A stretch of 32,621 bases of DNA from a virus (IMGVR_UViG_3300021963_000420:1-32621), one strand, 5' to 3'; positions 11,300 through 27,301 are shown, numbered from the stretch's first letter. The notes: generated from the letters alone by a model not told the origin. Translations and numbers: made by a program.

Positions 11300-11421
11300 T
11301 TGCTGGGAGTTTTGCCTGCGTCCTCGGCCGCTTGCATCATATCGTAGTTAGGCAGCCCTGTGTTCTCCGCTGGACGTGGCGAGCAGGAGCAGAGCAACAG
11401 AGCGATAAAAAGCAGAGGCAT
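11296..11421 (-). CDS. Tiny lipoprotein (41 aa)
   Basis: Translation of 11421-11296 starts MPLLFIALLLCSCSPRPAEN, a short lipoprotein signal with candidate lipidation cysteines in LLCSCS. The mature part would be under 32 residues, similar in scale to Rz1-type o-spanins or lysis-type lipoproteins. It starts in the sulfotransferase stop (TAATG) and overlaps the next gene by ATGA. Confidence 0.5.
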   Translation of the reverse strand: MPLLFIALLLCSCSPRPAENTGLPNYDMMQAAEDAGKTPSK

Positions 11422-12221
11422 TACAGTTCCTTTATCCACTTAAACGACTCTGCAATCTGGCGAGAAAACTCCTTACCCAACACATCGTCCCAATCTTTTT
11501 TCAATGGCTCAACCTTATTGCGGATAGTGTGATCTCCATAAGGCCAGCCGATTTCGTGTTCTGTGGTATATTGCTCTACATTCTTAAAGTCGTGGGCGGG
11601 TGATTCTAGTCCTAAATAATTCCAGACGGCTTCCATCGTTTCCTTTGGTTCTTCAGTCAAAGATTCAAAGTGAACAAAGTGTAGTTTGTCTTTATACCTC
11701 TTTACCGCATCCGACAATCTTTCTACGGCAATACCAAGTGGAGGTATGTTGAGCCAGCCTTGCGATCTCTTTTCTATCGTTGTCCAGTTTTGCGGGTTTT
11801 GTTTTTCAACGCCCGTAAATGGGAATGGATGCTTCTGCCATTTCTTTTCAAAAGAAGATAGGATGCCACGCATATCGCGAACTGGTACTAGCACTTTTGC
11901 GTTAGGCCAAATAGCAAAGAGCATATCTAAATGCCCAACCCAAGAACGGCATTTGTCGACTACAATAGGGCGGTCGGTTAGCCTATTGAAAGCGTTCTCG
12001 CACCCTCCCTTCACATAGTCATAGAATAAAGTTTCGCCATCTCTGGGGTTGGGAATGGTCTTGAACTCTTCGGTGCTGTGAAATTGTCGAGCTATGTAGC
12101 CAATTTCGTGCAATCCGCTAGTGGCTGTTGAATGGACTTTCTTGTTTTGTGCAAGCAGGTTCATTAATAGGGTTGATCCCGCTCTTGGCAGGCCAGAGAC
12201 AAAGTGAATGGTTTTAGACAT
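11421..12221 (-). CDS. PAPS-dependent sulfotransferase (266 aa)
   Basis: The N-terminal SGLPRAGSTLLMNLLAQN (residues 9-26) is the 5'-phosphosulfate-binding loop of PAPS-dependent sulfotransferases. VPVRDMRGILSSF near residue 112 fits the 3'-phosphate-binding region, and HFESLTEEP near 200 is a further family motif. The enzyme would transfer sulfate from PAPS to a hydroxyl or amine, probably on a glycan. It lies between the adhesin genes and the lysis cassette, so it might modify the host surface or the virion. Its composition is more AT-rich and GATC-poor than the replication genes, suggesting separate acquisition. Substrate unknown. Confidence 0.85.
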   Translation of the reverse strand: MSKTIHFVSGLPRAGSTLLMNLLAQNKKVHSTATSGLHEIGYIARQFHSTEEFKTIPNPRDGETLFYDYVKGGCENAFNRLTDRPIVVDKCRSWVGHLDMLFAIWPNAKVLVPVRDMRGILSSFEKKWQKHPFPFTGVEKQNPQNWTTIEKRSQGWLNIPPLGIAVERLSDAVKRYKDKLHFVHFESLTEEPKETMEAVWNYLGLESPAHDFKNVEQYTTEHEIGWPYGDHTIRNKVEPLKKDWDDVLGKEFSRQIAESFKWIKEL

Positions 12222-12231
12222 ATAAGGATTT

Positions 12232-13125
12232 CTACAAGTTCTTTATGACTGTGACATTTGTATTTCCTTGGAAAGTTAACCCAGTTCCAGCCGTCCAAGA
12301 TGCGTCTGTGCTTCTTGCTCGGATGGTTAATGGCGAGGCAGTTACATAAAATGCGTTACTTCCAATAAAAGCTGATTGTGCAACATAGCAAAGAACTGTG
12401 GCTAAATTGCCACATTCATAGAAAGCATAGCTACCAATACTGTTTACACCAGTTCCGATTGTGACTGTGGCTAGAATATCGCAATTACTGAATGCTTCTA
12501 CCCCAATCGTGGTTACGCTGTTTGGTATTGTGATACTGTTTAAGCTATCGCAATTTTCGAACGCATAATTCCCAATGCTTGTCACGCCTTCGGGGATGGT
12601 GATGGTGAGTAGTGCGGTGCAAGAAGCGAACGTGCTAGCCCCAATACTGGTTACGCTGTTGGGAATGGTGATGCTGGTTAGGCTGGTACAACTTTTGAAT
12701 GCGGTGTATCCAATGCTTAATACGCTTGAAGTTGGCGTAAAGGTAACGCTGGACAAGCTGGCGCATTCATAGAATGCCTCGCTTCCAATATCTGTAACAT
12801 TGGCGGGTATAGTTATGCTGGTGAGTCCACTACTTCTAAATGCGGCACCAAATATGTTGGTTACGCTGTTGGGGATAGTAATATTGGTTAGACCAGTACA
12901 ATAACCGAACGCATAATTCCCAATACTCGTTACGCTGTTGTCGTTTGCAAAGATAACAGAGGTAACTGTAGCTTCGTTTGCTACCCAACTATCAGGGATA
13001 TTTCCAGTATTTGTTGAGCCGACTTGGACATTTGAAGAGTTAAAGGCTTTTGAGGTGGTGATGGGGGCTATTTCTCCACCAGATAATAAGACCGAACGAA
13101 GCCTCAGGCCAAGGCCGAGGTTCAT
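12232..13125 (-). CDS. BspA-type leucine-rich repeat protein, putative adhesin (297 aa)
   Basis: Residues about 55-265 hold eight LRR_5 (BspA/TpLRR) repeats of about 23 residues with the pattern SVTSIGNYAFxxCxxLTxITIP. The short N-terminus (MNLGLGLRLRSVLLSGGE) may attach it to the tail, and the C-terminus (TDASWTAGTGLTFQGNTNV) is beta-rich. Such repeats bind proteins or surfaces, so this is a likely receptor-binding or accessory fibre protein at the end of the tail module. The repeats are also visible as tandem DNA similarity, giving scope for recombination. Confidence 0.75.
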   Translation of the reverse strand: MNLGLGLRLRSVLLSGGEIAPITTSKAFNSSNVQVGSTNTGNIPDSWVANEATVTSVIFANDNSVTSIGNYAFGYCTGLTNITIPNSVTNIFGAAFRSSGLTSITIPANVTDIGSEAFYECASLSSVTFTPTSSVLSIGYTAFKSCTSLTSITIPNSVTSIGASTFASCTALLTITIPEGVTSIGNYAFENCDSLNSITIPNSVTTIGVEAFSNCDILATVTIGTGVNSIGSYAFYECGNLATVLCYVAQSAFIGSNAFYVTASPLTIRARSTDASWTAGTGLTFQGNTNVTVIKNL

Positions 13126-20923: not shown

Positions 20924-21370
20924 TCAACTTGCGATGGAATTAGGCATGGCAATCACTGCCAGCCGGTAGGTGCGACGCATGGTGCGCTCCTCATCGTCGG
21001 CTTCAGGCTCTACAGAATCTACCTTGGCGTTATAGCAACGGGCAGATCCGATGGCGGTGGTGGCATTAAGGCGAGTGGCCAGTGAGCTAGAGTCATAGAA
21101 AGCCTGTAAGATTTTGGAACATTTTTGAGTGTGAGCGTCTAACGTTGTATCGTCATAAGAGTCATCCACTACGATTTCAACTGGTACGCTAAATACGCCA
21201 GATCCTTGCACCGGCTCCTCCGTGCCAAGAGTTGCCTTAATCACTATTGAAGGTGGCACATTCTCAGTTTTATCGTGCGATAAGTGATAGGTCGGCCCGG
21301 TAACTGTGGCGGTTAAAAGCTCTTTAAAAGCGCCTTCAATTAGGCGATCTAGCATGGTGACGGCTGGCAT
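20924..21370 (-). CDS. Tail terminator-like protein (148 aa)
   Basis: An alpha/beta protein beginning TMLDRLIEGAFKELLTATVTG, with VPVEIVVDDSYDDTTLDAHT and a C-terminal Arg-containing strand (RTMRRTYRLAVIAMP), a layout like minor tail / tail completion proteins (gpU or DUF3168-type). It precedes the tail tube-like gene and directly follows the metabolic cassette. Function inferred from fold pattern and order. Confidence 0.55.
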   Translation of the reverse strand: MPAVTMLDRLIEGAFKELLTATVTGPTYHLSHDKTENVPPSIVIKATLGTEEPVQGSGVFSVPVEIVVDDSYDDTTLDAHTQKCSKILQAFYDSSSLATRLNATTAIGSARCYNAKVDSVEPEADDEERTMRRTYRLAVIAMPNSIAS

Positions 21371-21385
21371 ATAATCGTTACCTTG

Positions 21386-22000
21386 TCACCAGATAGGGCG
21401 AATGGATGGATCGAATGTAACCATGGTTTTACAACCCGCCCCACCATGCGGAAACGTTGGGGTGTAGTGGTATCGCTTCACGCAATCGGGCCAAGTCATC
21501 GTGGCTTTTCCCCTGGCTGCCTTCGGCGTATCCACGGATCGATCGTTATCCTCAATAATAAATGTGCAAGGTAAATCTGCCCCAGCCACGTAGTTTACGG
21601 CCTCATAAAAATGCCCCTCATCCTCAGCTCCATCGCCCAGAAAGCACCACACCTTTGCCGTGCTTCCCTGCTCTTTGAGCGTGTGCGCTACTCCAGCCGC
21701 TATCCCGCAAGTGCCGGCCAAGACGCTCGAGGTGTAGAAATTCAGTTTACGGTCAAAGACAAACATAGAGCGACCTTCTCTAATCATTTCTTCAAGCAAA
21801 TTGGGATCTCCGCCAGCGAGCAGATAGTGGTAGTGGGATCTGTGGCTTGAGAAAATCCAATCGCCCGGCTTAATGTCTTTGAATATCTCAATGAGCTGAT
21901 CCTCATTCCCCCCGCATAAATGAATCAGATATGGCAGTTTGCCCTGCTCAAATAGCGCCTTAATCCGCAGTTCAAAATCAATTAGATCCTGTTTGTTCAT
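21386..22000 (-). CDS. TPP-dependent dehydrogenase E1-alpha-like / transketolase N-like subunit (204 aa)
   Basis: Shows E1-alpha hallmarks: GDWIFSSHRSHYHYLLAGGD near residues 46-65, SSVLAGTCGIAAGVAHTLKE near 91-110, and the thiamine diphosphate and metal motif GDG at 122-124 with DND at 151-153. Typical E1-alpha chains are about 320 residues or more; here the C-terminal part is replaced by a short tail (KRYHYTPTFPHGGAG). With the E1-beta-like chain two genes upstream it could form a minimal heteromeric TPP enzyme for 2-oxoacid decarboxylation or ketol transfer. It is last in the cassette, started by ATGA overlap. Substrate unknown. Confidence 0.8.
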   Translation of the reverse strand: MNKQDLIDFELRIKALFEQGKLPYLIHLCGGNEDQLIEIFKDIKPGDWIFSSHRSHYHYLLAGGDPNLLEEMIREGRSMFVFDRKLNFYTSSVLAGTCGIAAGVAHTLKEQGSTAKVWCFLGDGAEDEGHFYEAVNYVAGADLPCTFIIEDNDRSVDTPKAARGKATMTWPDCVKRYHYTPTFPHGGAGCKTMVTFDPSIRPIW

Positions 22001-23088
22001 ACAAAGGCATCGTGACTATCGGTGGCCAGCTTTTCAAACAGTGCGACCTTGGCGTGATTGGCGCATTCGTGCAGGCAACTGACGCCAGGGTTAAAGTTCT
22101 TATGCCATGCCCGCGCTTCTTCGCTAAACCATGCCTCGGCAAAACTTTGGTTTTTCATGGAGGCGATCCGGCCGTGATTGCTGTAGGCGGTGTTGTGACA
22201 GGCGTAGATATCCAGATCCGCACCGACAACGCAAACCGCCTGAGCATAAAGACAGCGATGGAATGGCCGAACGGGCGACTTGCTTGGACTATCCAGATCG
22301 TAGGTGGTGTTAATGGTGAAGTCTGAATCGCAAAATAACTGGCATTCGGCCAGTTGTTCGCGCACACGGGTGGCGATTGGGGCGTGGTACTCTTTGAAGT
22401 TCTGCACGTAGACGGGCGAGAAGCGTACGTTTTCCACGCCGATATCTTTGAGCCGCTTTGCAAAAGGCACTAGCCCCTCGTAGTTGTAGTTTGTAATTAT
22501 GAAATTCACGCCTAGATCACAGGACTGGGTTTTTGTCTTGGCGAATTGCTCGAGGTTGGTGATGACGCCATCGAACCAAGATTCCGGCACGTTGCGACTA
22601 GCGACCATCTGCTCGGAGCTGGTGTAGTCCATCGACACCCTCACCCACTTCGCCTGACCTAATAGTTCCGCCCGCAGGCCGGACAAGCTCTGACCATTTG
22701 TAATCATCGACAGATCCAGACCGGCCTCGATGGCACGGCCCATGATGACGGCGATATCTTTATGCAGTAGAGGTTCGCCACCGCCCGAGAAGGTGATGGC
22801 CTTGGTACCGATGGCGCCAAGATCGTCCATGAGCTCAAGGGCTTTTTCTGTGGGCATAGTGTCCCGCTCGTTCATGGCAGTATGCATGCCTGATTGGAGA
22901 TGAAGATCCGGCCGATCCTTCTTGCGGGTGGAGCCGTCAGAGTAGGTGCAGAAACGGCAAGCGTGTTGGCAGATATTTATGGGCTTTACCCGCACGTAGA
23001 TGGGCGCGGTGATAATATCGTCCCGAAAGCTGGCGATCTTTTCTGGGAAGGAAAAGATTTTGAGGTCGCTGTACTTGTTCTGCTTCAC
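21997..23088 (-). CDS. Radical SAM / SPASM-like enzyme (363 aa)
   Basis: C40-x3-C44-x2-C47 (NICQHACRFCTYSDG) is the canonical iron-sulphur and SAM motif, followed by TFSGGGEPLLHKD as the GGE motif. The C-terminal third carries more cysteines (HRCLYAQAVC, IYACHNT, VSCLHECANHAK) as in SPASM or twitch domains that hold auxiliary clusters. It would generate a 5'-deoxyadenosyl radical to modify a sugar, peptide or cofactor. Start taken at the second of two adjacent GTG codons, giving a GTGA overlap. It sits between the two TPP enzyme subunits, so a common pathway is likely. Substrate unknown. Confidence 0.85.
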   Translation of the reverse strand: MKQNKYSDLKIFSFPEKIASFRDDIITAPIYVRVKPINICQHACRFCTYSDGSTRKKDRPDLHLQSGMHTAMNERDTMPTEKALELMDDLGAIGTKAITFSGGGEPLLHKDIAVIMGRAIEAGLDLSMITNGQSLSGLRAELLGQAKWVRVSMDYTSSEQMVASRNVPESWFDGVITNLEQFAKTKTQSCDLGVNFIITNYNYEGLVPFAKRLKDIGVENVRFSPVYVQNFKEYHAPIATRVREQLAECQLFCDSDFTINTTYDLDSPSKSPVRPFHRCLYAQAVCVVGADLDIYACHNTAYSNHGRIASMKNQSFAEAWFSEEARAWHKNFNPGVSCLHECANHAKVALFEKLATDSHDAFV

Positions 23089-23603
23089 CACTCATCCTTC
23101 CGCTCGACTAGCATGGTGGAAGTTCCGACGCTTAATCTATCCAGTGCGTTTTGATATTCGCTGACTACGCTTTCTTTTTTTAGTTCGACGATTGGGAAAT
23201 CAATCATTTTCCTAAGAGCTTTGGTGAAGTCCTGCGTGTGAGTCGGCCCCGTATAGAGCGGCTTGCTTTTATTTCCTATGACTACCCGTAAGATGGCGGC
23301 CGGCTTAAATTGATTGCAGCTAATGTGCTGGGCTGCGCCTAGGTGATTTACAATGGCGTCCAGTGCGTTCAGAATAAAATCCATCCGCTCAATAAATACG
23401 ACTGGTTTCAGCCCGGCTAAACTCAGGCCCGTGGCTAGTCCTACCATCAGATTTTCAGCGACAGGCGTTTCGATCAGTTGTGAATCCGCAACATTATTGA
23501 GCGTGCCTGCCGCCCGGCCGCCTATCTTCACCCCGTAGCCTATAAACCTAACGGCCGGATCGGCCGCCAGTAAATCCATCGCCTGAGTCAGCTCCTTCCT
23601 CAC
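23085..23603 (-). CDS. TPP-dependent E1-beta-like / transketolase pyrimidine-domain subunit (172 aa)
   Basis: Matches the pyrimidine-binding domain of E1-beta chains: LIETPVAENLMVGLATGLSL with the conserved Glu50 that activates the cofactor, then GLKPVVFIERMDFILNALD and IVNHLGAAQHIS. E1-beta proteins are usually about 325 residues with a C-terminal transketolase_C domain; here that domain is absent. The GTG start overlaps the glycosyltransferase stop (GTGA). It probably partners the E1-alpha-like protein, with the radical SAM gene between them. Confidence 0.8.
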   Translation of the reverse strand: MRKELTQAMDLLAADPAVRFIGYGVKIGGRAAGTLNNVADSQLIETPVAENLMVGLATGLSLAGLKPVVFIERMDFILNALDAIVNHLGAAQHISCNQFKPAAILRVVIGNKSKPLYTGPTHTQDFTKALRKMIDFPIVELKKESVVSEYQNALDRLSVGTSTMLVERKDEW

Positions 23604-24364
23604 AGCAAGCCTTCCTCTTCTAAAATATGAACAGCGTGATATGCGCTCCTAGCCATCTGACCGCGTTTGGTAAATATGACTGTCTCTGTATCCGCGCAGA
23701 GCAAATGAAAGGCGTCTTTGTTATGAACGTTTAGGCATGGCCAGCTCGGCCCGGTGGAAGTTCCGATGACGGCTTTTGCCTTGGCGGCAGTGGCTCCGAT
23801 CCAAGTCACATTTTTGCCATCAAATGCTGGGCATAATCCAGTAGCTGTCGTTGTAACAACCCTATGCCCTTTGGCTATTAGCTTAGAAACTAGGACGCGG
23901 AAATCGTCGGGGTTAAAGTTTGTAAATTGACCAGACAGCCCTGGCGAATTTATCACGACGATGTCGAAGTCTGGAGCCATCTGAATAAAGGAATCTAAGG
24001 CTGGATAATCAAACAGGAGGTCATCGACTTTCTGGATCGGATTCTTGACGCACATCCTGCTGGCCAGTTCCTCAAACCAGTCTAAATGAAATTTTGCAAA
24101 GTTTAATTTATCGGTGTGACGCTCCCAATATCCGCCCGTGTTCCGCCAAGAATCAATACTATCGGCTGGTGCTTCGCTGATGGGTCGAATGCGTAGCCGT
24201 AAAGATATGTCGCTTCGCAAGGCATCAATCTCCTCAAACTTGCACAGCTCTGGATTGTGGTAGTGCGTGATTTCAAGATCTGGATTTTGCAGGCATAGCC
24301 GACGTAGAAAATTTAACTGTACTAGGTTATCGCCCAAACGCAGTGCGTTGTGGGTGTGAATCAC
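23600..24364 (-). CDS. GT9-like (heptosyltransferase-type) glycosyltransferase (254 aa)
   Basis: The N-terminal HTHNALRLGDNLVQLNFLRR is the GDxL start of GT-B enzymes of family 9. The C-terminal half has VVINSPGLSGQFTN, VLVSKLIAKGHRVVTTTATG, then AKAVIGTSTGPSWPCLNVH, resembling the nucleotide-sugar pocket where GT9 proteins read (G/S)xDTGxxHxA. It is shorter than typical GT9 enzymes (about 320-350). It would add a sugar to a surface or virion glycan. GTG start in the stop of the upstream GT2 gene. Confidence 0.7.
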   Translation of the reverse strand: MIHTHNALRLGDNLVQLNFLRRLCLQNPDLEITHYHNPELCKFEEIDALRSDISLRLRIRPISEAPADSIDSWRNTGGYWERHTDKLNFAKFHLDWFEELASRMCVKNPIQKVDDLLFDYPALDSFIQMAPDFDIVVINSPGLSGQFTNFNPDDFRVLVSKLIAKGHRVVTTTATGLCPAFDGKNVTWIGATAAKAKAVIGTSTGPSWPCLNVHNKDAFHLLCADTETVIFTKRGQMARSAYHAVHILEEEGLL

Positions 24365-26046
24365 GGATTTCTTTCCTTAAATATCTTCTCGCCTAGCTCG
24401 TAGTTTTCCTTGGCGTTGTGCCGTTTAAATTCCGCGTCCTGAGTTGCCCCGGTGAAGAGCGGATTATTGTGAGTGAATACGATGTCCTTAGCAGGAATGA
24501 TGACGCCGTCCTTCGCCCCTCGTAAGCTGTACTCGTTGTCGCTAAATATGCCTGAGCATGCGTCGTACTCCGGCGCAAAGAGCGTGCCCTGCTGTGCCAG
24601 CCTGGCTTTCGTCAGGATCGCCATGCAAAGCAGATCGTCCTTACGATGGCCGTCAGAAATTGCGAGCACTGCGGGCTTGCTGGTATCGCCCAGGCGTTCG
24701 GTGATGATTGCGTCCCAGTGCAGTGGAGGATCCCAATCGTCAGATCCTTGTATGATAATCTCGCCCCGGGCTATGGCTGCGGCTCGATTCCAAGCGGCAA
24801 CGCAACCGCCCTCCCCTTTTACTAAATTCCAATTTTTCAGCGGCTCAGAGCTGGGGTCGTTATTGTCGCACGAAAAGATCCACTCGACCGAGGCAGGATC
24901 TGCTGCCTTTTTCATCCATAGGATGCGGGCGTTGATCGCTTCTTGGGGTCGACCTCGGGTGGCGTGGCAGACGCTAATCTTTACCGGCTTCTGAGCTCTC
25001 CACATTTTCTCGATCTTGTCGGCTTCGGTGGTATCGCCCACAGCTCGGCAGGCCGCCAGATAAAGATCGATGCACTCAAAGTCATAGACGGTGCGCTGGG
25101 CGTTCCAGATCTTTAGGCCCGGATCGGGCTGAACCATGGCCGATTTTAGTAAGTGGTAAGCCTGTAACCACGCACCCACGCTGGCTTCTTCCCTAGCTAA
25201 AAAGTAAATGGCTTCCCTGCGCCCAGGATTCATCTGATGCGCCTTGTGGTATAGGCCAATCCTAACGGCGCGATCCTGAGTTGCGGTGGCCTCATTGCAG
25301 GCCGCTTCGTAAGCTAGCGTCGCCTCTTGCCCGGGCCAGATCGCGGCTACGTGCGACCATGGCAGAGACTCGTTCCGCTTATTGCCCAGAAAAAGCTCCT
25401 GCTGAAAGTAGTAAGCATACTTGCCCGCCTCACTAAGCTGGCCCTGCAAGATGCGTAGATTGCGGTCGGCGCTGTTTGGCTTGTAGCCGCCTGGGTGATG
25501 TTCCACCCACACCTGCTGCTCCCCGACAGATTCATAGCCCGGAAGGGGTAGGAGCGCTTCGTGTACTGCGTAGTGCCACCGGCCCGACCACTGCCCATCC
25601 TCTAACCGCTTAACCATTCTTTCCCTTACTGGGGTTAATTTGGCGTTTATAACGTTATAAACGCCTGCGTAGATGCCGAGCTTAGGATTCTGTTCAAATG
25701 CTTCTACAGCCCTTTTAAGAGCGTTTTTGAGGTCTTTATGAGGCAGGTCATCGCAATCCACCCAGAATGCGTAGTCGCCAGTACACGCATTCAATGCGCA
25801 GTTCCTAGCGGCGGCAAAGTTGTCGATGTGTTGCCATGACGCTGCGGCCGGTGCGTTGTGATACTCAACTATTTTGGCACCTGACTTTTCTACTATGGCC
25901 CTAGTGCCGTCATCAGGCCGGCCACCCTGAGCCATGCACACGACTATCTCATCACAAAACTGAAACGCCTTGAGGCAGCGGTCGATAAATTGGGCCTCAT
26001 GGCCGGCAATCAAGTAGAGGGAAATTTTAGGATTTCGAGTGGCCAT
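24361..26046 (-). CDS. Two-domain GT2-family glycosyltransferase (561 aa)
   Basis: The N-terminal GT-A domain (residues about 5-200) has ISLYLIAGHEAQFIDRCLKA, NFAAARNCALNACTGDYAFW and the metal-binding VDCDD at 96-100. A helical, TPR-like middle follows (about 250-345, with YHKAHQMNPGRREAIYFLAR). The C-terminal part (about 350-560) looks like a second GT-A fold: KISVCHATRGRPQEAINARI, CVAAWNRAAAIARGEIIIQG and SDDWDPP near 435. Two catalytic domains could build a disaccharide. It opens the cassette, one base after the head-tail connector stop. Confidence 0.8.
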   Translation of the reverse strand: MATRNPKISLYLIAGHEAQFIDRCLKAFQFCDEIVVCMAQGGRPDDGTRAIVEKSGAKIVEYHNAPAAASWQHIDNFAAARNCALNACTGDYAFWVDCDDLPHKDLKNALKRAVEAFEQNPKLGIYAGVYNVINAKLTPVRERMVKRLEDGQWSGRWHYAVHEALLPLPGYESVGEQQVWVEHHPGGYKPNSADRNLRILQGQLSEAGKYAYYFQQELFLGNKRNESLPWSHVAAIWPGQEATLAYEAACNEATATQDRAVRIGLYHKAHQMNPGRREAIYFLAREEASVGAWLQAYHLLKSAMVQPDPGLKIWNAQRTVYDFECIDLYLAACRAVGDTTEADKIEKMWRAQKPVKISVCHATRGRPQEAINARILWMKKAADPASVEWIFSCDNNDPSSEPLKNWNLVKGEGGCVAAWNRAAAIARGEIIIQGSDDWDPPLHWDAIITERLGDTSKPAVLAISDGHRKDDLLCMAILTKARLAQQGTLFAPEYDACSGIFSDNEYSLRGAKDGVIIPAKDIVFTHNNPLFTGATQDAEFKRHNAKENYELGEKIFKERNP

Positions 26047-26047
26047 G

Positions 26048-26347
26048 CTAAAACTCTCGCAAGCCCAAGACGTAAGATCCGATTGAAGTATCCAAGGTCA
26101 CGATGCGGAAACTGACTGAGTTAGCCACTAATACTGATCCGATCGTCGGGGCCGTAGTGATCGCTGTGATATCAATGGTGAAAGTGCTGTTAAGATCTAG
26201 GTCAAACCCGCCCAGCTCAACCGCTTCCTTGCGTGTAGTCGTGGAAAGAATGCCCGTGACGCTTGTCGATCCGATGGTCGCCGCCGTGCCCGTCTGTTCG
26301 TAAAGGGCGGCCAAACTTTCTTTGAGGCATTGCGTAAATTCAGACAT
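26048..26347 (-). CDS. Head-tail connector-like protein (99 aa)
   Basis: A small beta-rich protein: FTQCLKESLAALYEQTGTAA, then strands with SVTGILSTTT and SVSFRIVTLDTSIGSYVLGL. Position right after the major capsid gene and its stem-loop, plus size, fit a head completion / connector protein of the lambda gpFII kind. The family call is tentative. The metabolic cassette begins immediately after it. Confidence 0.55.
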   Translation of the reverse strand: MSEFTQCLKESLAALYEQTGTAATIGSTSVTGILSTTTRKEAVELGGFDLDLNSTFTIDITAITTAPTIGSVLVANSVSFRIVTLDTSIGSYVLGLREF

Positions 26348-26410: not shown

Positions 26411-27301
26411 TTAGCTGCCGTTGATACGTACGAGGCTGTTCGGCTCTCCCGCTTTCACGCCGTAAATTAAGGCGTAGGTGCGTTGGAGCTGGCCTTTGAC
26501 CACGTCGTAGTTCTCACGAACTTGGACGGACAGGCCGGTGCGGGGTTCCGTTACCACGCTGATGTCTCCGGGAATCGGGACGCCAGTAGGAACTTCCGGA
26601 ACGCGAGCCGCGATCAACAAGGCTTCCTGCTGGGCGAAGAATCCGCCGAGCGTGATGCTGTTGGAGGGCACTGCGCTGTACTGATTGATGTTGAATCCAG
26701 CCACGTTGCCGATCCCAGCCGTGCGAACGAGATCGCCTGTGATCTGGGGATTGGCCACTACGGTGCTGTCATTCAGCAATGCGCCGTAGAAGCTGGGGTT
26801 AAGAACGGCGTACCGGCCGTTGACCGGGCTGTTGTTATTGTTGAGGGTGATGCCGGCCGACACTACCGAGCGGTAGGAGAAGGCACTGGAAGCAACCGTC
26901 AATGCGCTGGTGAAGGTGGAGGAAGTCACAAGGGCCAACAGATCCCCAACCATTTGCAACCCGAGGGCGTGCGCGGCTGCGCCGGCGAAACGCTCGATCA
27001 GGTTGATGTTGGAGCTGGTGCGCTCTTGATCGTCCACAGAGTACGAAACGTGCTTGAACTTGTTGAGAGTGATCTGCACGTCCGTCTGGGTTGTCGCAGT
27101 CGCTACATAGCCGTTTGCCTGCGAGTAGTCCTGGGCGGTCGTCGCAGAGATGCGGTGGGTGTAGACTGATGCGTTGTATTTAGCCGCTTCGCTGCTGAAA
27201 TCCGTGACGGAGTTTCTGAGGAAGCTGTAATCTGCCACGAGGATCTCAAGAGCCCTCTGAGCGATTACATTGGCATTAGTTGTTCCGATTGTGTTGGCCA
27301 T
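26411..27301 (-). CDS. Major capsid protein (296 aa)
   Basis: An HK97-fold-type coat protein of about 300 residues. The N-terminal arm (VIAQRALEILVADYSFLRNS) leads to the segment TLNKFKHVSYSVDDQERTSS, typical of P22-coat-like and related capsid proteins, then LIERFAGAAAHALGLQMVGD and the C-terminal GLSVQVRENYDVVKGQLQRT. AGGAGA lies 8 nt before the ATG, the clearest ribosome binding site seen. Between the protease/scaffold gene and a strong stem-loop, it has the expected place and expression signals. Confidence 0.8.
   Translation of the reverse strand: MANTIGTTNANVIAQRALEILVADYSFLRNSVTDFSSEAAKYNASVYTHRISATTAQDYSQANGYVATATTQTDVQITLNKFKHVSYSVDDQERTSSNINLIERFAGAAAHALGLQMVGDLLALVTSSTFTSALTVASSAFSYRSVVSAGITLNNNNSPVNGRYAVLNPSFYGALLNDSTVVANPQITGDLVRTAGIGNVAGFNINQYSAVPSNSITLGGFFAQQEALLIAARVPEVPTGVPIPGDISVVTEPRTGLSVQVRENYDVVKGQLQRTYALIYGVKAGEPNSLVRINGS

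Follow-up and report, generated by a model that had tools for sequence, protein, structure and literature searches.

A conserved, exchangeable cassette of glycosyltransferase, minimal thiamine pyrophosphate enzyme and radical SAM genes in a phage late operon, with a possible role in making C2-branched sugars

The DNA analysed here, referred to as the window, is a 32.6-kb virus record from IMG/VR (IMGVR_UViG_3300021963_000420, 32,621 nucleotides). Between positions 21386 and 26046 it contains a cassette of five open reading frames, all on the minus strand, within the late operon for virion morphogenesis. The first is GT2 (24361–26046, 561 residues), a double glycosyltransferase, followed by GTx (23600–24364, 254 residues), a protein with the predicted fold of a GT9 glycosyltransferase (heptosyltransferase). 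E1-beta (23085–23603, 172 residues) and E1-alpha (21386–22000, 204 residues) are the pyrimidine-binding (PYR) and pyrophosphate-binding (PP) modules of a minimal thiamine pyrophosphate (TPP) enzyme, the latter with a GDG...N motif. Between them lies rSAM (21997–23088, 363 residues from a GTG at 23088, with another in-frame GTG at 23091), a radical S-adenosylmethionine (SAM) protein with a C-terminal domain that appears to be of the Twitch auxiliary-cluster type. The original prediction, made from the DNA alone, described five genes in this stretch joined by 4-nt overlaps. The reading frames are located as predicted, and direct reading of the four internal junctions gives 4-nt overlaps at each, in the order GTGA, GTGA, GTGA and ATGA.

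GT2 matches Glycos_transf_2 (PF00535) in a Pfam search with an E value of 3e-11. Its N-terminal GT2-family domain contains a DCDD motif, and a second, C-terminal glycosyltransferase-like domain contains QxSDDW; phrog_13126 and phrog_14945 each cover one half of the protein. The DxD-type acidic motifs of both domains are invariant in relatives. A role of GT2 in peptide S-glycosylation was considered and rejected, as the match to SunS (NCBIfam, E 0.008) is too weak. GTx has no match in Pfam, NCBIfam or PHROG, and it does not belong to the GT9 sequence profile. Its AlphaFold2 model has a predicted local distance difference test (pLDDT) score of 92.4, and the best PDB folds for this model are the GT9 heptosyltransferases WaaC, TibC and WaaF, which share the GT-B fold of GT9. 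Judged by predicted fold only, GTx is a glycosyltransferase; it has the fold of WaaC and TibC, at only 11–14% identity.

The two E1 proteins correspond to the N-terminal (E1-alpha) and C-terminal (E1-beta) halves of a single PHROG of unknown function, phrog_34187, and in some relatives they are fused. E1-alpha matches E1_dh (PF00676, 2e-17) over positions 6–174 of 300 alone and also matches DXP_synthase_N, and E1-beta matches Transket_pyr (PF02779, 2.5e-7), the pyrimidine-binding part alone. The claim that both halves of an E1-type enzyme are encoded thus holds for the two TPP-binding modules, but E1-alpha is partial and E1-beta has no Transketolase_C domain. Residues G122-D123-G124 of E1-alpha (the GDG motif) are invariant across relatives down to 54–58% identity, as are Glu-50 and His-122 of E1-beta. 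We take Glu-50 to be the counterpart, by position, of the catalytic Glu of E1 enzymes. Alpha (PP) and beta (PYR) modules with a GDG motif and a catalytic Glu are what is expected of the alphaKADH2 class of C2-branching enzymes.

The rSAM protein matches Radical_SAM (PF04055) at 1e-14, which agrees with the predicted radical SAM/SPASM assignment in its first part; the SPASM match is only sub-threshold. The CxxxCxxC motif (C40/C44/C47) and four further cysteines (C279/C297/C338/C342) are invariant in 13 sequences, the pattern of Twitch/SPASM dehydrogenases, and the four extra cysteines would fit a Twitch domain with one cluster. Profile matches include BlsE, MoaA and DesII, and the nearest folds to the structure model are DesII, SuiB and BlsE, of which DesII and BlsE are sugar-nucleotide enzymes. 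In one relative (L057:5142-7265) an intein (Hint_2, Intein_splicing) splits the rSAM gene directly after the CxxxCxxC motif.

Relatives of the cassette were collected by searches with E1-alpha, rSAM and the head protein, followed by gene mapping and removal of duplicates. The order GTx-E1b-rSAM-E1a is shared by 44 distinct related contigs, termed type A, and 4-nt overlaps (ATGA, GTGA and TTGA counted) occur at the four junctions in 42, 44, 40 and 40 of them. The original prediction would have failed if related phages carried these genes singly and in random places or had lost the catalytic residues. Within this phage family the order is kept, and in distant relatives the GDG motif, Glu-50/His-122 and the rSAM cysteines are intact. 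The dN/dS ratio is 0.01–0.15 where synonymous change is unsaturated, which indicates strong purifying selection; together with the conserved gene order, this makes a chance arrangement far from likely, and the idea of functionless passenger DNA was rejected on these two grounds. The five genes are very probably a functional glycan cassette. Identity is uneven among the cassette genes: in contig L044 rSAM is 94% identical to that of the window and its neighbors are 64–83% identical, and the reverse is found in other relatives. For this reason, single genes seem to have recombined inside the cassette.

The cassette occupies a variable slot. Upstream, on the same strand, lies the major head protein (26411–27301, phrog_283, 6e-32), followed by gpA (26048–26347), a small protein whose place ahead of GT2 is kept in relatives and for which no Pfam or PHROG family match was found. 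The first gene downstream, T21 (20924–21370, minus strand), is the slot boundary in all cassette types and a candidate head-tail or tail protein. Profile matches also place a portal upstream and a tape measure downstream. The head and tail setting of the original prediction is therefore confirmed by the head protein, portal and tape measure, but its tail terminator label is not, as T21 has no Pfam or PHROG family match.

The relatives share the order head protein, gpA, GT2, and differ in what lies between GT2 and T21. GT2 is the constant gene, found with every cassette type. In the four contigs of type B, a split pair of the transketolase type (Transketolase_N, PF00456, 4e-12; Transket_pyr, PF02779, 2e-22) takes the place of the E1 pair and occurs with GTx, a methyltransferase and rSAM. 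Because GTx and rSAM are retained when the E1 pair is swapped in this way, cassettes with rSAM seem to require a TPP step as well. Types C and D (19 contigs) contain methyltransferases, a glycosyltransferase-like protein of 222 residues and in some cases a DUF5672 protein, and have neither a TPP enzyme nor rSAM. The 222-residue protein was considered as a GT9 enzyme and rejected, as profile comparison with GTx gave homology no support. On quick trees, in which many forks are weak and the exact counts uncertain, cassette type requires 18 changes on the GT2 tree (20.5 when shuffled), 18 on the head-protein tree (19.6) and 15 on the T21 tree (20.1), and well-supported branches of the GT2 tree force at least 7 changes for type A alone. 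The cassette has clearly been swapped often against the backbone, and its type is distributed almost at random over the GT2 and capsid trees.

The rSAM gene also has a stand-in. Wider searches gave at least 173 distinct E1-alpha genes, and partners were counted in the 49 clusters (90% identity) whose flanks reach 3.5 kb or more in each direction. The partner is a Zn-alcohol dehydrogenase in 31 of these clusters and rSAM in 18, and no cluster has both or neither. The 10 of the 173 E1-alpha genes listed with neither partner are all short-flanked. All 49 full-flank clusters thus have a neighboring oxidoreductase that might provide a keto-sugar, as expected for alphaKADH2 enzymes. The E1-alpha tree shows four partner changes, each of them forced by well-supported branches. 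In two relatives (L072 and L074) the dehydrogenase stands in for rSAM beside GT2, GTx, E1b and E1a, and a third (L067) has the same exchange with GTx, E1b and E1a. In L350, a fused TPP enzyme of the dehydrogenase clade occurs with rSAM and GTx of the window type. The rSAM matches in three cellular loci (L210, L211 and L214) call for caution, being more distant paralogues. The strict use of one or the other of two unrelated oxidoreductases suggests that both serve a common step. The E1 pair and rSAM can each be replaced by non-homologous or distantly related proteins.

The TPP family is found at no fewer than 568 viral loci; clear cellular relatives number at least 5 among 84,980 species genomes. 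In two phyla, represented by 297 and 292 genomes, no further relatives were found beyond the centre genome itself. The 31 clusters of the dehydrogenase class include those of the cyanophages P-TIM68 and S-SM2. Near the TPP gene in this class are a kinase (23 clusters), an HldD-like epimerase (13), GmhA (11) and a nucleotidyltransferase (11), and an HldE-like kinase/nucleotidyltransferase also occurs in the vicinity on a Nanoarchaeota contig. The GT9 fold of GTx together with these heptose-synthesis-type neighbors suggests that the sugar is of the heptose type. On a Prochlorococcus single-cell contig (L213:1624-6482), a Zn-alcohol dehydrogenase and a fused E1ab adjoin genes that by eye look like gmhB, hldE and hldD. 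In a Desulfobacterales metagenome-assembled genome (L211:5863-10935), GT2, three rSAM genes and an E1 pair form an island, apparently chromosomal, beside an ABC transporter and rpoN. A gene that by eye resembles a C5-cytosine DNA methyltransferase lies between E1-alpha and E1-beta in L410:7603-8733.

Oxidation of a sugar-like alcohol is carried out in neomycin-type pathways by a Zn-dependent dehydrogenase. The same conversion, from alcohol to ketone, is performed by BtrN, a radical SAM enzyme with a four-Cys auxiliary cluster (PMC9012708). BtrN, the radical SAM dehydrogenase of butirosin, is of the Twitch type like the phage enzyme, with low sequence similarity. From the replacement of rSAM by a Zn-alcohol dehydrogenase, we infer that rSAM oxidizes an alcohol. 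In other pathways, the E1-type pairs AviB1/B2 and Pau11/12 have been proposed to add an acetyl branch from pyruvate onto a keto-sugar, KbDH adds this branch to ketones in vitro, and split transketolases have been proposed to add a hydroxyacetyl group once an oxidoreductase has made the ketone (PMC4753412, PMC4425429, PMC12247030). C2-branching is favored here because cassette types A and B appear to correspond to these known E1-type and split-transketolase enzymes, with rSAM as the candidate oxidoreductase.

In the proposed pathway, the rSAM/Twitch enzyme would turn a sugar hydroxyl into a ketone, the substrate most likely being a heptose-type sugar, either nucleotide-activated or already transferred. 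The minimal E1-alpha/E1-beta enzyme would then decarboxylate a 2-oxo acid such as pyruvate and place the C2 unit on the ketone, giving a C2-branched sugar. GTx and GT2 would build the glycan on an acceptor, which is more likely a virion protein than the host surface. Taken as a whole, C2-branching of a keto-sugar by the exchangeable type-A cassette, with the virion as the likelier acceptor, is put forward tentatively, with a little less than even confidence.

Several results weigh against this proposal. No Transketolase_C domain (PF02780) was found in the record, and E1-beta therefore falls short of a full-length beta subunit. Confidence in the rSAM model is moderate (pLDDT 80), and SuiB, a peptide enzyme, scores like DesII against it. 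The Twitch region matches BtrN only weakly (2.8e-4), and when a profile of this region alone was compared with the PDB, mainly chance matches ranked above BtrN. Owing to the kinship of the clusters, the exclusivity of the partners amounts to about four independent switches, not 49. In the lineage of L406, L410 and L422 the trio of TPP and rSAM genes lies outside a head-tail context, and the virion is for this reason not a general acceptor. The presence of the TPP gene among other sugar genes in large phages and cyanophages likewise counts against the virion as a general rule.

For the window lineage, a virion acceptor is favored by the late operon, by translational coupling and by the fixed position of GT2 behind the capsid gene. 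The same sugar chemistry could instead place its product on host lipopolysaccharide (LPS) or capsule and mask the receptor, which would exclude superinfection or keep progeny off debris. This is a possible but less probable outcome. It is favored by TPP-enzyme relatives that cyanophages carry in LPS-type clusters, by those next to an ABC transporter and a sigma-54 gene in a Desulfobacterales chromosome, and by the LPS heptosyltransferases among the GT9 structures nearest GTx. However, the cassette is translationally coupled within the late morphogenesis operon, and GT2 is found behind the head protein even in L072, where the same layout follows a head protein of a different family (phrog_1005).

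A second alternative concerns the chemistry. The TPP pair might resemble transketolase or DXS and make an unusual ketose phosphate for a heptose pathway, with rSAM or the alcohol dehydrogenase acting at a separate step. The match of E1-alpha to DXP_synthase_N, the transketolase-like pair of type B, and the GmhA-like isomerases and kinases of the dehydrogenase class are compatible with this. We regard it as unlikely, as no isomerase or kinase adjoins the pair in the window cassette and the strict pairing with an oxidoreductase would be unexpected if the steps were unrelated. The original prediction of a single pathway with a sugar or acyl group as product stands as a co-expressed glycan pathway with conserved order and intact residues, but an acyl group has become the less likely product. 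Formation and transfer of such a group, as by the E1 component of a 2-oxoacid dehydrogenase complex, is suggested by the sequence family (E1_dh). It is very improbable: in addition to Transketolase_C, the E2 catalytic domain (PF00198) and the lipoyl domain (PF00364) were not found in the record, although the record might lack part of the genome and the host could provide these functions. Carbon-carbon ligation on a sugar is therefore a better fit than transfer of an acyl group. In T4-like phages DNA is modified by phage glycosyltransferases, but a pathway that hypermodifies DNA bases and leads to glycosylated DNA is the most improbable reading of all, given the slot in a late structural operon, the alternative cassettes of freely varying methyltransferases and glycosyltransferases, and the heptose genes that accompany relatives, although annotation covered the rest of the window only in part and hydroxymethylase genes may be encoded there.

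Each part of the proposed C2-branching cassette is of a known kind. No description of this gene set, its exchangeability or the partner rule was found in the open-access library searched, from which most subscription papers are absent. Like the phage pair, AviB1/AviB2, Pau11/Pau12 and KbDH-alpha/beta are two-subunit E1-type TPP enzymes in a glycan cluster for which a keto-sugar acceptor is expected. The Pau11/12 subunits have 325 and 345 residues, in contrast to 204 and 172 in the phage, and the phage pair is virus-borne, partnered with rSAM or a Zn-alcohol dehydrogenase, and of predicted activity. The split-gene transketolases proposed for the branched sugars of miharamycin and amipurimycin resemble type B in having a split pair beside an oxidoreductase candidate, whereas the type B pair is shortened to PP and PYR modules, is located in a phage and occurs with a GT9-fold glycosyltransferase and rSAM. 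The cyanophage LPS clusters of P-TIM68 and S-SM2 contain the same TPP family in fused form next to a Zn-alcohol dehydrogenase. They have heptose-type sugar genes and no adjoining rSAM of the window family, and their TPP protein is annotated only as a transketolase central region-containing protein. Mycobacteriophages such as Che8 and Rita share the idea of virion glycosylation, their glycosyltransferases being thought to decorate capsid proteins. In phages of this type glycans were found on the capsid protein, whereas for the window cassette a glycosylated virion is a prediction. The glycosyltransferases of Maravista lie near the genome end, unlike the window cassette between head and tail genes. 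To our knowledge, no TPP or rSAM enzyme takes part in mycobacteriophage virion glycosylation.

Whether cyanophage LPS genes are functional or stuffer DNA was not known to Sullivan et al. in 2010 (PMC3037559). The occurrence of the same TPP family in several phage lineages with an oxidoreductase partner that recurs strictly, and the purifying selection in the window lineage, argue for function. A broader and more speculative view, to which we give limited credence, is that a minimal TPP family found mostly in viruses equips phages to make C-branched sugars. In this family rSAM and Zn-alcohol dehydrogenase would be interchangeable oxidants and the E1- and transketolase-type pairs interchangeable C2 donors, and a quickly swapped "serotype" slot in the virion operon would give near-identical virions different sugar coats. 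If the chemistry is true, viruses would be a new source of split keto-sugar carbon-carbon ligases and radical SAM sugar oxidases, and phage glycans would vary by cassette exchange, much as bacterial O-antigens do.

Elsewhere among the late genes of the window, a sulfotransferase-family protein is encoded at 11421–12221 on the minus strand (PF13469, 4e-18; phrog_27463, of unknown function). Its sulfation target could be the same glycan. It adjoins a gene for a BspA-type leucine-rich-repeat protein (12232–13125, minus strand; LRR_5, 5e-65).

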